In this document: positions 3,836 to 31,507 of the stretch, one piece after another | How the letters are laid out: each line of letters begins with the position of its first letter | Position numbering within the stretch: the stretch's first letter is position 1 | From: Sinorhizobium saheli | GTDB lineage: Bacteria; Pseudomonadota; Alphaproteobacteria; Rhizobiales; Rhizobiaceae | Direction: 5' to 3' | Assembly: GCF_001651875.1 (NCBI RefSeq) | Contig: NZ_LNQB01000083.1 | Coordinates: forward strand, 377,130-441,129 | DNA length: 64,000 nucleotides | Position numbers and translations under genes: made by a program | The notes under the pieces: generated by a model | What the model was told of the DNA's origin: nothing | The model's database searches: none | The model's input: only the letters and a program-made list of their open reading frames with translations

Positions 3836-4540
3836 ATGGCAAGAAACAACGACAGATCCCCACAGCTTCGGCCCGACCGCGGTGACGCGACACGGGAGAA
3901 GCTTCTGAACACCGCCATCGACGTCTTCGGGCGCTATGGTTTCGACGGCGCGACAACCCGGAAGCTCGCCGATGCGGCGGGCGTCAACCTTCAGGCGATC
4001 CCCTATTATTTCGGCGGCAAGGAAGGGCTTTTCATTGCCGCGGCCGAACACCTCGCCTCGATCATCGGCGGCCATGTCGGCGACCTGCGCGCGGCGATCC
4101 TCACCCGTTTCGCGGAGCTCGACGCCGACGGCGCAAAGATGACCGCCGCGGAGGCGCGGCAGTATCTCACCCTGATCGTCCAACGGATGGTTGTCCTCTT
4201 CGTCAGCGAGGAATCCGAAAGCTGGGCGCGGTTCATCATTCGCGAGCAGATGGAGCCGACCGAGGCGTTCAGGCGCATCTACGGCCATATCATGCGACCG
4301 ATGATCGAGATGGCGCGGCGGCTGATCGGCACGATCCTGGACGACGACCCGGCCTCGGAACACATAGGCCTGAGGACGCTCTCCTTCGTCGGAAGCATTC
4401 TGATCTTCCGTACGGCCCATGCCGCAGTCTACGCGCAGCTCGAATGGGAAACCGCGGGCCCGCGCGAAATCGAGATATTGCAGCGTCATGCCGCCGAACT
4501 CGTCGCCGTGCTCGGCGCGGAGAAGGACCGCCAATCATGA
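3836..4540 (+). CDS. cecR: TetR/AcrR-family regulator, CecR (YbiH) type
   Basis: A 234-residue repressor. The N-terminal helix-turn-helix occupies about residues 15-60 ([20 protein letters not shown], then [11 protein letters not shown]). The rest matches the CecR-type C-terminal ligand domain. In E. coli, cecR heads the ybhGFSR operon and controls it together with rhlE in response to antibiotics. The same gene order here, with a 4-bp overlap to the YbhG-like gene, makes autoregulation of the efflux operon likely. No ribosome binding site is visible before the ATG (see the promoter entry). The inducing ligand is unknown. Confidence 0.88.
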
Positions 4541-27551: not shown

Positions 27552-28376
27552 CTAAAAGGTCGGCGGCGTGTTGATCCACAACAGGACCGTCTCGCCGTCA
27601 TGCCTGTTCGACCAGGCATGGCGGCGGCGGCTCTCGAAATAGAGAGAGTCGCCCGGATTTAGATCGTAGAACTGATCGCCATCGAGCACGAACTCCACAT
27701 GGCCGGAGAGCACATAGACGAATTCCTCGCCCTCGTGCCGGTAGGCGCCCTCGCTCGAGGCGCCGGGTGCCAGCACGAAGCGATGGCAATCCATCTGGTT
27801 GTTGCCTTCGGCAAGCAGCTGCACCGTGACGCCGGGCGTCGTGCGCGGCCAATTGTGCCATTCGCCGGCACGGACGAGCGCCCGCACTTGCGGCTGCTCT
27901 TCCCCGGAGAGGCTCGACACGGTCGTTCCGAAATATTCCGCGAGGTTGTGCAAGACGGCGACGGAGACACCCTGGGAGGTCCGCTCTAGCGTCGACAGGA
28001 CCGATGCGGCGATTCCGACGTCACCCGCCACCTGCTCCAGCGTCTTGCCCGCCGCATGCCTGAGGCTGCGCAGCTTCCGCCCGACCTGCACGTCGGCGCT
28101 GTTTTCCGGCGCTGCTGCCGCGTTGTTCTCGTCGGCTGCACTTTCCGCTTCGAGCGCCTGCCGTATCGCCGCCGGGTTCAGGCCGCGTTCGGCACGGAAC
28201 CAGGAGATGCGCTTCAGGCGCGCGAGATCGGCCTCGGTATATTGCCGGTGGCCGGTCGCCGAGCGCTCGGGCACGACGAGTCCCTGCGCTTCCCACAGCC
28301 GAAGCGTCGAGGCCGATACGCCGGCGAGCCTTGCCGCCTCGGCAACCTTGTAGCGTACGGTATCGGCACCGCTCAT
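27552..28376 (-). CDS. MerR-XRE-cupin three-domain transcriptional regulator
   Basis: A 274-residue protein with three modules. A MerR-type winged helix covers residues 8-75 (YKVAEAARLAGVSASTLRLWEAQG). An XRE helix-turn-helix covers about 97-155 (VGRKLRSLRHAAGKTLEQVA). A C-terminal cupin covers about 190-270, with PGASSEGAYRHEGEEFVYVLSGHVEF and a matching second motif. XRE-cupin regulators such as PuuR control amine and GABA catabolism in other bacteria; an additional MerR domain is uncommon. It is divergent from gabT, with 259 bp between starts and a palindrome in the spacer, so control of gabT-gabD is the simplest inference. Confidence 0.88.
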   Translation of the reverse strand: MSGADTVRYKVAEAARLAGVSASTLRLWEAQGLVVPERSATGHRQYTEADLARLKRISWFRAERGLNPAAIRQALEAESAADENNAAAAPENSADVQVGRKLRSLRHAAGKTLEQVAGDVGIAASVLSTLERTSQGVSVAVLHNLAEYFGTTVSSLSGEEQPQVRALVRAGEWHNWPRTTPGVTVQLLAEGNNQMDCHRFVLAPGASSEGAYRHEGEEFVYVLSGHVEFVLDGDQFYDLNPGDSLYFESRRRHAWSNRHDGETVLLWINTPPTF

Positions 28377-28536
28377 TTTTTCCTGTCCTCATTCCGGCTT
28401 CGGGTGCGACGCGGTTCGGAGCCCCCTGTCGCTGCCCGGCAATCTACCCGTGCGGCTCGCCGCTTTACAAGGAGCGCCCGACGGCTTCGGCTCTCATTAG
28501 CTCTGCCTCGCATTAGCCTCGGCTGTGTCCCGATCA

Positions 28537-28551
28537 GCAAATTTGATTTGC
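28537..28551. promoter_or_regulatory. Palindrome in the divergent gab promoter region
   Basis: A perfect inverted repeat, GCAAAT-TTG-ATTTGC, in an AT-rich stretch 99 bp before the gabT start and 161 bp before the regulator start. Its symmetry and position suit an operator for the MerR-XRE-cupin protein. Confidence 0.45.
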
Positions 28552-28635
28552 ATTCCATTCCAAAAGATGTACCACTTCCGAGGAAAAGTTGCAGAAAAAA
28601 TGCAAACTATTCCTCTCGAAAACAGGACGACGACG

Positions 28636-29904
28636 ATGACGAGCCTCCCCGATCGCAAGAACGCAGCCATCTCCCGCGGCGTTGGAATGACCACGCAGAT
28701 TTACGCCGAGCGCGCCGAAAACGCCGAGATCTGGGACAAGGAAGGCAACCGCTACATCGATTTCGCCTCCGGCATCGCCGTCGTCAACACCGGCCACCGC
28801 CATCCGAAGGTGATCGCCGCCGTCAAGGCGCAGCTCGACCGCTTCACCCACACCTGCCATCAGGTCGTTCCCTACGAGAACTACGTTCACCTGGCGGAGC
28901 GCCTGAACGCGCTCGCGCCCGGCAAATTCGCGAAAAAGACGATCTTCGTCACGACCGGCGCCGAGGCCGTGGAAAACGCGGTGAAGATCGCCCGCGCCGC
29001 GACGGGGCGCCAGGCGATCGTCGCCTTCGGCGGCGGCTTCCACGGCCGCACCTTCATGGGCATGGCGCTGACCGGCAAGGTCGTGCCCTACAAGGTCGGG
29101 TTCGGCGCGATGCCGGGCGACGTCTTCCATGCCCCCTTCCCGATCGAGCTCCACGGCGTCACCGTCGAGCAGTCGCTGGCGGCATTGAAGAAGCTCTTTG
29201 CCGCCGACGTCGACCCTGCCCGCGTCGCTGCGATCATTCTCGAACCCGTCCAGGGCGAAGGCGGCTTCTATCCGGCGCCGACCGCCTTCATGAGGGCGCT
29301 GCGCGAAATCTGCGACCAGCATGGCATCCTGCTCATCGCCGACGAGGTGCAGACCGGCTTTGCCCGCACCGGCAAGCTCTTCGCCATGGAGCACCATGAC
29401 GTCGCGGCGGACCTGATGACGATGGCGAAGAGCCTCGCTGGCGGTTTCCCGCTTGCCGCCGTGACCGGACGCGCCGAGATCATGGATGCACCCGGACCGG
29501 GCGGACTTGGCGGCACCTATGGCGGCAACCCGATCGGCATCGCCGCCGCCCATGCCGTGCTTGACGTCATAGAGGAGGAGAAGCTCTGCGAGCGCGCCAA
29601 CCAGCTCGGCAACCGGCTGAAGCAGCGCCTCGCCGCCATTCGCGAAAAGGCGCCGGAGATCGCCGACATTCGCGGCCCGGGCTTCATGAATGCCGTCGAA
29701 TTCAACGACGCGACGACGAACCTGCCGAGCGCCGAATTCGCCAACAAGGTCCGCCTGATCGCCCTCGACAAGGGTCTCATCCTGCTCACCTGCGGCGTCC
29801 ATGGCAACGTCATCCGCTTCCTGGCGCCGATCACCATCCAGGACGGGGTCTTCGCCGAGGCGCTCGACATCCTCGAGGCATCGATCCTTAAAGCCCGCGG
29901 TTGA
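28636..29904 (+). CDS. gabT: 4-aminobutyrate aminotransferase
   Basis: A 422-residue PLP enzyme converting GABA plus 2-oxoglutarate to succinate semialdehyde plus glutamate. The phosphate-binding stretch TTGAEAVENAVK is near residue 106. D236 (LIADEVQTGFARTG) should contact the PLP pyridine and K265 (MTMAKSLAGGFP) forms the Schiff base. Length matches GabT. ATG 28636 begins where homologues usually begin, with AGGACG upstream. ATG 28600 is possible, with a good GAGGAAAAG before it, and would add 12 residues. It is followed by gabD on the same strand after 127 bp. Confidence 0.93.
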   Translation: MTSLPDRKNAAISRGVGMTTQIYAERAENAEIWDKEGNRYIDFASGIAVVNTGHRHPKVIAAVKAQLDRFTHTCHQVVPYENYVHLAERLNALAPGKFAKKTIFVTTGAEAVENAVKIARAATGRQAIVAFGGGFHGRTFMGMALTGKVVPYKVGFGAMPGDVFHAPFPIELHGVTVEQSLAALKKLFAADVDPARVAAIILEPVQGEGGFYPAPTAFMRALREICDQHGILLIADEVQTGFARTGKLFAMEHHDVAADLMTMAKSLAGGFPLAAVTGRAEIMDAPGPGGLGGTYGGNPIGIAAAHAVLDVIEEEKLCERANQLGNRLKQRLAAIREKAPEIADIRGPGFMNAVEFNDATTNLPSAEFANKVRLIALDKGLILLTCGVHGNVIRFLAPITIQDGVFAEALDILEASILKARG

Positions 29905-30031: not shown

Positions 30032-31507
30032 ATGGCCTTGACGCCCGCACTGACCAAGCATCTCAGGGCTGCCGAGCGCTTCGCTGCGCTCGACCGTGTC
30101 ACCCGGCCCGCCGGCGATTGGTCCGGTGCAACCTTCGACGTCTTCAATCCGTCGACCGGCGAATTGCTGGCGACGCTTCCCGACATGGGGATCAACGACG
30201 CACATCGTGCGATCGAAGCCGCTGCCAAGGCCCAGCCGCTGTGGGCGGGCAAGCCCGCCAAGGACCGCAGTGCCATCCTGCGCCGCTGGCACGACCTGAT
30301 CGTCGAGCACGCCGACGATCTCGCCGCCATTCTGACGGCCGAAATGGGAAAGCCGCTCGGCGAGGCCAGGGGCGAGGTCCTCCATGCCGCCTCTTACGTC
30401 GAGTGGTATGCGGAAGAGGCCAAGCGCGTCTACGGCGAGACCTTTCCGGCGCCGGCCAATGACCGCCGCATGCTCGTCATCAAGCAGCCGGTCGGCGTCG
30501 TCGGCACCATCACGCCGTGGAATTTCCCGGCCTCGATGGTCGCGCGGAAGATTTCGCCGGCGCTCGCCGCGGGCTGCACGGTCGTGCTGAAGCCGGCGGA
30601 GCAAACCCCGCTCGTGGCCGGCGCGATGTTCGTGCTTGCGCAAGAAGCGGGGTTCCCGGAGGGCGTCCTCAATCTCGTCTACGCCTCGGAAGGTGCGCCG
30701 ATCGGACGCGAGCTCTGCAGCAACCCCAAGGTGCGCAAGATCAGCTTCACCGGATCGACCGAGGTCGGCCGGCTGCTGATGCGGCAATGCTCCGACCAGA
30801 TCAAAAAGGTGAGCCTCGAACTCGGGGGCAATGCCCCCTTCATCGTTTTCGACGACGCGGATATCGACGAGGCCGTCGACGGCGCGATCCAGGCGAAGTT
30901 CCGCAACGCCGGCCAGACCTGCGTCTCGGCGAACCGCATTTACGTGCAGGCGGCGGTTCATGATGCTTTCGCCGAGAAGTTCGTGGCCGAGGTGCGCAAA
31001 CTCACCGTCGGCGACGGCTTCTCCCCCGGGATCACGATCGGCCCGATGATCGACAGCCATGCGATCGAGAAGATCGAGGCGCATGTCGCCGACGCGCTTG
31101 CCAAGGGCGGCAGGCTGCGCTGCGGCGGCAGGCGGATCGGAACGAACGGCACGTTTTTCGAACCGACCGTGCTCACCGGCATCACGCATGACATGCGCGT
31201 CGCCCAGGAAGAGACCTTCGGCCCGATCGCCCCGATCATCCGCTTCGAAAGCGCCGAGCAGGTGGTGGCCGAGGCGAACGACACGATCTACGGCCTGGCC
31301 GCCTATTTCTACGCCGAGAACCTGAAGCGGGTCTGGCACGTCGCCGAGGCGCTGGAATACGGCATGGTCGGCATCAACACCGGTCGCATGTCCTCCGAGG
31401 CCGCCCCCTTCGGCGGCATCAAGCAATCCGGCATCGGCCGCGAGGGCTCGCGCCACGGTCTCGAGGATTATCTCGAGATGAAATATCTCTGCATGGGGAA
31501 CATCTGA
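30032..31507 (+). CDS. gabD: Succinate-semialdehyde dehydrogenase
   Basis: A 491-residue aldehyde dehydrogenase. The cofactor region is TPWNFPASMVARKISPALAAGCTVVLKPAEQTP, interrupted here only for reference. The conserved FTGSTEVGR precedes the general base E263 (SLELGG), and the nucleophile is C297 (NAGQTCVSANR). Sequence and context point to oxidation of succinate semialdehyde to succinate, completing the GABA shunt begun by gabT. A strong GGAGG lies six bases before ATG 30032; in-frame starts further upstream run into the gabT 3' end and are rejected. The NADP+ preference usual for GabD is assumed. Confidence 0.93.
   Translation: MALTPALTKHLRAAERFAALDRVTRPAGDWSGATFDVFNPSTGELLATLPDMGINDAHRAIEAAAKAQPLWAGKPAKDRSAILRRWHDLIVEHADDLAAILTAEMGKPLGEARGEVLHAASYVEWYAEEAKRVYGETFPAPANDRRMLVIKQPVGVVGTITPWNFPASMVARKISPALAAGCTVVLKPAEQTPLVAGAMFVLAQEAGFPEGVLNLVYASEGAPIGRELCSNPKVRKISFTGSTEVGRLLMRQCSDQIKKVSLELGGNAPFIVFDDADIDEAVDGAIQAKFRNAGQTCVSANRIYVQAAVHDAFAEKFVAEVRKLTVGDGFSPGITIGPMIDSHAIEKIEAHVADALAKGGRLRCGGRRIGTNGTFFEPTVLTGITHDMRVAQEETFGPIAPIIRFESAEQVVAEANDTIYGLAAYFYAENLKRVWHVAEALEYGMVGINTGRMSSEAAPFGGIKQSGIGREGSRHGLEDYLEMKYLCMGNI

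Follow-up and report, generated by a model that had tools for sequence, protein, structure and literature searches.

A MerR-XRE-cupin fusion protein and a candidate operator at the gabTD genes of Sinorhizobium saheli and related rhizobia

The gabTD genes of Sinorhizobium saheli are probably controlled by a local repressor of composite build. A single protein joining a MerR winged helix-turn-helix (HTH), an XRE-type HTH and a cupin domain is encoded divergently from gabT, and it likely acts as a dimer on an inverted repeat with a 7-bp centre (N7); the MerR module may read the DNA, and a ligand of the cupin would bring about release. Comparison of sequences across genomes documents the architecture of this protein, its linkage to gabT, a candidate operator and the association of that operator with the regulator.

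The window analysed here is a stretch of 64,000 nucleotides from a genome of 5.99 Mb in 102 contigs. The regulator gene occupies 27552..28376 on the minus strand as an open reading frame of 274 residues with its start at 28376. A preliminary description of the region had called the product a MerR-XRE-cupin triple fusion, and three Pfam domains above cut-off in the one chain confirm this: a MerR winged-HTH module at residues 8-76 (28149..28355, minus strand; MerR_1, 1.8e-21), an XRE/Cro-type HTH module at residues 96-152 (27921..28091, minus strand; HTH_31, 7.2e-15) and a cupin core, the presumed sensor, at residues 198-267 (27576..27785, minus strand; Cupin_2, 2.6e-20). MerR_1 reaches 76 bits against a cut-off of 21.6, and HTH_31, HTH_3 and Cupin_2 all exceed theirs, as expected of an XRE-cupin protein. 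The protein is neither PuuR nor HspR by the corresponding equivalog models: NF007408 for PuuR matches residues 93-273 with 56 bits against a cut-off of 211, and HspR, the best NCBIfam match of the MerR part, yields 56.6 bits, below its cut-off of 105. TnrA is among the PDB sequence matches, though not the first of them.

An alignment of 28 orthologues shows the recognition helix of the MerR module (V20, S21, S23, T24, L25, R26, L27, W28, E29) and its wing (R38, G42, H43, R44, Q45, Y46) to be invariant, with W28, R44 and Y46 present in 28/28; so are S125, L127, S128, T129, E131, R132, T133 and S134 of the XRE module. Judged by sequence, therefore, both HTH modules keep their key residues, and the loss of DNA-contact residues that the preliminary description had named as an argument against its reading is not seen. 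The cupin has five residues that are the same in 28/28 (Y212, H214, E218, H253, N257). The first metal ligand of the cupin motif is usually a histidine; here the position is an invariant tyrosine, Y212. A structure model of moderate quality (pLDDT 69.6, pTM 0.39) places MerR helices at 11-18, 22-30, 48-64 and 68-83, followed by a low-confidence stretch at 80-96, five XRE helices between 97 and 156, and a beta barrel at 174-270. The long C-terminal coiled-coil helix through which MerR proteins dimerise appears to be missing from this model. In a fold search the model came closest to 1y9q, a regulator of the HTH_3 family; given the moderate quality of the model, this match is no more than supportive.

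Across a spacer, on the plus strand, lie gabT for 4-aminobutyrate transaminase (28636..29904; NF005692, 868 bits against a cut-off of 724, the name coming from PRK07495, above cut-off) and gabD for succinate-semialdehyde dehydrogenase (30032..31507; TIGR01780, 688 bits against a cut-off of 646), the presumed targets and presumably one operon. The divergent arrangement with gabTD was correctly described beforehand, and since the regulator starts at 28376 and gabT at 28636, the limits given for the spacer, 28377-28635, are right as well. The arrangement recurs widely. The regulator stands divergently beside gabT in 25/25 loci of a first pass through the genus and in 24/28 further loci from a family search (two of the 28 congeneric), and gabT followed by gabD is divergent from it in 80/80 loci of named genomes, these being the best 80 of at least 571. 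Neighbours were examined in 35 of the 45 regulator-bearing genomes of the family, namely 30 plus G046, G088, G123, G138 and G136. gabT adjoins the regulator in four of these five extra members; the one in G136 (39% identical) lies among other genes, with gabT not adjacent, which counts against the favored model.

The fusion is widespread in rhizobia and no local oddity. It occurs in 33/33 genomes of the genus sample (G030 with a partial match of 151 residues only), in 45/247 genomes and 20/109 genera of the family sample (E <= 1e-50), and, with a diverged orthologue as query, in 10/297 genomes of the order sample (E <= 1e-45). Six of those ten lie outside the family, and one of the six (family f41) also has the gene beside gabT. 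A scan of named genomes with an alignment of 12 proteins confirmed at least 571 relatives among 595 candidate stretches, of which the best 80 were kept; Sinorhizobium and Ensifer are the closest among the named matches listed. Matches fall in 119 plasmid records. The 30 listed span 1.5-2.5 Mb; one of them calls the relative a 'MerR family transcriptional regulator', and in the other 29 it is unannotated. The added MerR module had been called unusual at the outset, which holds for the literature searched and fails for genomes, as the architecture occurs throughout the genus sample and is frequent among rhizobia.

Other members of the protein family have other neighbours. A homologue from family f5 (L244, genome G365), 45% identical over 266 residues and with all three domains, is transcribed away from an ABC-transporter operon that includes a solute-binding protein gene (by Pfam), and the spacer between them carries a related site, TTACAGAAACAATGTAA, at 4314-4330. 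A MerR-XRE-cupin paralogue, 42-46% identical, is found in L128, L129 and L130 (G023, G022 and G008), where its neighbours are etfBA-, purU-, folD- and ETF-QO-like genes, an SSADH-like gene and a DMGDH-like oxidoreductase. Family search identified the regulator and one etf gene; the other names were given by eye. At the etf genes, G022 (L120) alone has a near-match to the same consensus close to etfB, some 40 bp before it; in the second genome the site is 1.56 kb upstream, the third has none, and no site is claimed.

The best-conserved element of the spacer between the regulator and gabT is TTGCAGAAAAAATGCAA at 28589..28605 (plus strand), a TTGCA-N7-TGCAA inverted repeat that occurs once in the 64-kb window against 0.03 expected. 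This candidate, operator A, is likely the operator, and it is distinct from the palindrome proposed in the preliminary description. The alignment of spacers left out L016 and L035, with their unusual spacer lengths, and four loci lacking an adjacent divergent gabT; it also places a second candidate, operator B, at 28556..28572 (plus strand), its core 33 bp upstream of that of A. Copy B is degenerate in the genus: Sinorhizobium keeps an A-tract and the right half ATGTAC, and the left half is lost. Each of the 33 genus genomes carries the operator with no more than two mismatches, and in each of them one such match is within 300 bp of the regulator; the total is 70 such matches, against 10 for a reversed control. 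Among the named genomes, 63/80 spacers hold the operator within three mismatches and the other 986 kb of the same loci hold none. The remaining 17/80 hold none at that threshold; in most of them a TACAGAAAAAATATA-type copy is all that is left, and they count against the favored model. The relaxed pattern TRCA-N7-TRYA is found in 80/80 named spacers (118 hits, 5.6/kb versus 0.015/kb in the flanks), a contrast that is partly by construction because relaxed patterns were derived from the very loci in which they are counted. The pattern is also present in 24/24 family-search spacers with an adjacent gabT and, in a further 5/5 loci where the regulator is adjacent, upstream of gabT. In 36/80 named loci the motif stands in tandem, the copies 32-34 bp apart and 33 bp being the commonest distance. 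The earlier idea of a two-part operator thus survives as a single motif present twice at a distance of 33 bp, with no sign that the HTH modules read different parts. Rfam has no match in the window.

The palindrome first proposed, GCAAAT-TTG-ATTTGC at 28537..28551 (plus strand), is a less promising site. It had been called perfect; it consists of 6-bp arms around a 3-bp centre and is not a perfect 15-mer. Its arm pair GCAAAT/ATTTGC is found once in the window against 0.01 expected, and a 6-bp inverted repeat turns up in 8% of shuffled spacers with a loop of exactly 3 bp and in 49% with any loop of 0-10 bp. A role as operator, either whole or as half of a two-part one, would accord with the conservation of the block CAAATTTGATTTG in 27/27 genus spacers (counted in 27 of the 33 genomes) and with a likeness to Pararhizobium spacers. 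What is conserved, however, is sequence and not symmetry. Only 10/27 retain the outer G-C pair; the core is retained in Sinorhizobium and Ensifer and partly in Pararhizobium, and the palindrome as such is absent from the Rhizobium and Shinella spacers examined, which keep both regulator and gabT. The shared part amounts to TTG and AT-rich DNA at a -35 position: the right arm overlaps a -35-like TTGCAT, the putative -35 of gabT (28548..28553, plus strand), and the conserved element begins 37 bp after the palindrome. We therefore rejected the palindrome as the operator, a role that now seems highly improbable; the simplest reading is that it marks a conserved promoter region.

If the N7 repeat is the binding site of the fusion protein, it should be found where the protein is. 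The exact form TTRCAGAAAAAATGYAA is present in 14/247 family genomes, all 14 among the 45 with the regulator and 0/202 without it (Fisher 7e-12). By genus, the figures are 8/20 with the regulator versus 0/89 without (p 3e-7), and the reversed pattern gives 0 in the family genomes. Of 15 exact sites, 13 are at the regulator-gabT spacer, and one (G248) precedes a gabT about 177 kb away from the regulator. One exact site in another place (L075, G260:C11:27488-27504) lies 77 bp before an SBP_bac_8 solute-binding protein gene and about 4.3 kb from the regulator; this gene is probably an extra target in that genome. Allowing one mismatch, in the slightly altered pattern TTGCAGAAAAAATRCAA, weakens the contrast to 21/45 genomes with the regulator versus 18/202 without (p 2e-8), and the reversed control gives 4 hits in 247 genomes. 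Eight of those 18 regulator-less genomes are under 3 Mb. At least five of the 21 one-mismatch hits are not at the regulator, so a near-match is no proof of a target. A hit in the source genome itself (G000:C44:15198) was set aside, being inside a reading frame.

The loci in which the genes have parted offer a natural comparison. The regulator is apart from gabT in 4/28 family-search loci (G208, G137, G265, G248), and the four separated gabT genes (L134, L220, L221, L222) keep TTGCA-N7-TGCAA 59 to 147 bp upstream; no site with up to three mismatches is found in the 12-kb stretches around the four separated regulator genes (L124-L127). In regulator-less genomes, two gabT orthologues (82% identical) lack TRCA-N7-TRYA in 300 bp. 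The element thus belongs to gabT and tracks the regulator rather than merely the gene order, on a separated set that is small (four cases, three from one genus, in draft assemblies). The link of the regulator to gabT that had been suggested is upheld by these comparisons even where the genes are not neighbours. For the earlier interpretation as a whole, as for the observations behind it, the fusion, the HTH residues, the gabTD genes, their link to the protein and the spacer have stood, and the perfect palindrome and its role as operator have not. In three of the separated loci (L220, L221 and L222, all of genus g106), gabT directly follows a replication protein C gene, assigned by Pfam in L222 and by eye from similar proteins in L220 and L221, and its place is probably a repABC replicon origin, apart from the presumed regulator.

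It could still be that the N7 palindrome belongs to another factor controlling gabT, the association with the regulator being a phylogenetic coincidence. A second conserved site between eamA and cspA and the near-matches in 18/202 regulator-less genomes would fit such a factor. We think it very unlikely, given that exact sites number 0/202 without the regulator, that the sites stay at gabT in the four genomes with the genes apart, and that the 45%-identical homologue from another family has a related site in its spacer to the ABC-transporter operon. The second site (often TTGCAGAAAAAATACAA) is found in 15 alignable loci (L104-L113, L115, L117-L119 and L123), downstream of an EamA transporter gene and about 500 bp before a cold-shock protein gene, where it is conserved inside diverging DNA; the genes were family-searched in L115 and L105 only. 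The copy in the source genome is TTACAGAAAAGATGCAA at G000:C68:128149-128165, and Rfam has no match in three of the loci. A purely local gab repressor does not account for this recurrent site, which counts against the favored model.

The position of the two copies suggests how binding would act on transcription. A scan of 28300-28700 for sigma-70 consensus promoters found nothing, so the promoter positions are taken from conservation. Other genera have TTG nine bases upstream of the core of copy B in 41/41 distinct contexts and TAGG after copy B in 40/41, the A of the -10's TA, and TAGG for lone B copies, being set by construction of the pattern and TTG not. The flanks of copy B read as a putative promoter, -35 TTGcaa, 16 bp, -10 TAGGAa. 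The corresponding -10-like hexamer in the window, TACCAC at 28570..28575 (plus strand; TAGGAa in other genera), is weak, and this poor hexamer together with the degenerate copy B counts against the favored model.

The mechanism we infer, from dimerisation and repression to the promoter positions, the class of ligand and the part played by the MerR module, would run as follows. A dimer of the regulator would bind the 17-bp inverted repeat TTGCA-N7-TGCAA, which in many relatives has two copies 33 bp, or about three helical turns, apart. Copy B would fall between the -35 and -10 positions, and copy A a little past them in what is likely the transcribed leader, and the bound regulator would block RNA polymerase or its escape. 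The MerR module, lacking a coiled coil as in TnrA/GlnR, would read the palindrome, and the XRE-cupin part would provide dimerisation and sensing; release would follow when the cupin takes up a small molecule from GABA/polyamine catabolism. GABA, succinate semialdehyde or a polyamine are guesses at this ligand, made from the target genes.

An activator at or near the promoter, working by MerR-like remodelling or by recruitment, is an alternative that we regard as unlikely. The N-terminal module belongs to the MerR family, and copy B in other genera is between the -35 and -10 positions, the classic position of a MerR operator. MerR-activated promoters, however, have an over-long spacer of 19-20 bp, and the spacer around copy B in other genera appears to be 16 bp, with promoter positions assigned by conservation. 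The copy that is intact in S. saheli lies 33 bp further downstream, a repressor-like place; site II of GlnR, downstream of its promoter, represses (PMC6191146, in the part available), and the XRE-cupin factors studied in Pseudomonas are inhibitors according to the accessible portion of PMC7901475. Repression thus remains the reading we prefer.

Which of the two HTH modules reads the site is harder to say, and that it is the MerR module is close to an even call. TnrA/GlnR, a branch of MerR that dimerises without a coiled coil, binds TGTNA-N7-TNACA (PMC6191146, part of the text), and HspR binds CTTGAGT-N7-ACTCAAG (PMC6102357, likewise in part). Three loci (L228, L229 and L231) have XRE-cupin-only genes directly upstream of gabT genes of about 60% identity, with no MerR domain by Pfam in the three proteins. 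About 60 bp before gabT, in the same place in all three, is TTGCTCA-N5-TGAGCA, which is probably the operator of the XRE-cupin-only type of regulator. Given the N7 spacing here and the N5 sites there, the MerR module is favored as reader, a preference that draws on the spacing and on only three XRE-cupin loci.

The same regulator and operator could also work with the XRE dimer as the reader, the MerR module being an accessory that stabilizes the dimer or touches flanking DNA; we hold this to be quite possible, if somewhat short of probable. Known XRE-cupin factors have palindromic sites that are taken to be bound by dimers (PMC7901475, as far as that source is available), and helix-3 residues S128 and E131 are present in 28/28, within an LST-ERTS block strongly conserved in operator-bearing orthologues. 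Several observations speak against it: the three XRE-cupin-only gab loci use another half-site and another spacing, TnrA/GlnR and HspR sites share the N7 spacing, and the paralogue, 80-90% identical over ten helix-3 residues, carries no TRCA-N7-TGYA in the 300 bp before its own gene. A further step, more tentative and in our view doubtful, is that DNA reading has moved from an ancestral XRE domain to a captured MerR module without a coiled coil, leaving the XRE pair for dimerisation or bridging, in a protein that controls rhizobial GABA catabolism. If so, the N7 operator, with its TnrA/GlnR geometry, would be the signature of this change, replacing the N5 of XRE-cupin gab regulators; the XRE pair would serve dimerisation or bridge the two operators 33 bp apart, giving one dimer with four DNA-binding heads, and the second conserved site near cspA may point to a wider regulon.

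Parts of this system have counterparts among known regulators. The XRE-cupin repressors PuuR, PauR, PsdR and ErfA likewise have an XRE HTH followed by one C-terminal cupin, and for PauR, PsdR and ErfA the likeness would extend to a palindromic site and to local control of an adjoining catabolic operon, predicted here (PMC7901475, partial text). The characterized Pseudomonas XRE-cupin factors act, in the same partial source, as local repressors, and where a motif has been derived the site is a palindrome (PMC7901475). The regulator of S. saheli differs from them in its extra N-terminal MerR winged HTH, and its putative N7 operator differs from the TTGCTCA-N5-TGAGCA of the three XRE-cupin-only gab loci. 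With TnrA/GlnR it shares, by its structure model, a MerR winged HTH without a long coiled coil (PMC6191146, in part), and with both TnrA/GlnR and HspR an inverted repeat with a 7-bp centre, here known from sequence alone. The half-site is another one, XRE and cupin domains are added, and the cupin replaces the flexible C-terminal sensor of TnrA/GlnR. GabR, of the MocR type, has the same target genes, gabTD, and MocR genes often stand divergent to the genes they control (PMC5320631, in the portion available); yet GabR combines a GntR HTH with an aminotransferase-like domain, and protein and operator are unrelated to those described here. GabR is described for Firmicutes and for beta- and gammaproteobacteria in what is available of that source (PMC5320631).

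The literature searched, with subscription papers outside its scope, contained no paper that joins MerR, cupin, XRE and gabT, and the fusion was not found described among the matches listed; nor did the search find the control of this gabTD operon. The fusion is real, conserved and ordinary in genomes, though not found described in that literature. In legume nodules the breakdown of GABA is important. A gabDTR cluster, which may not be the cluster studied here, is strongly up in pea bacteroids of Rhizobium leguminosarum (PMC6421345, from the part available), and in bacteroids of S. meliloti arginine is converted to succinate by way of GABA (PMC7268258, also in part). The analysis names a concrete candidate pair of regulator and operator for these genes. 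The fusion also offers a natural case for asking what two types of HTH do in one chain.
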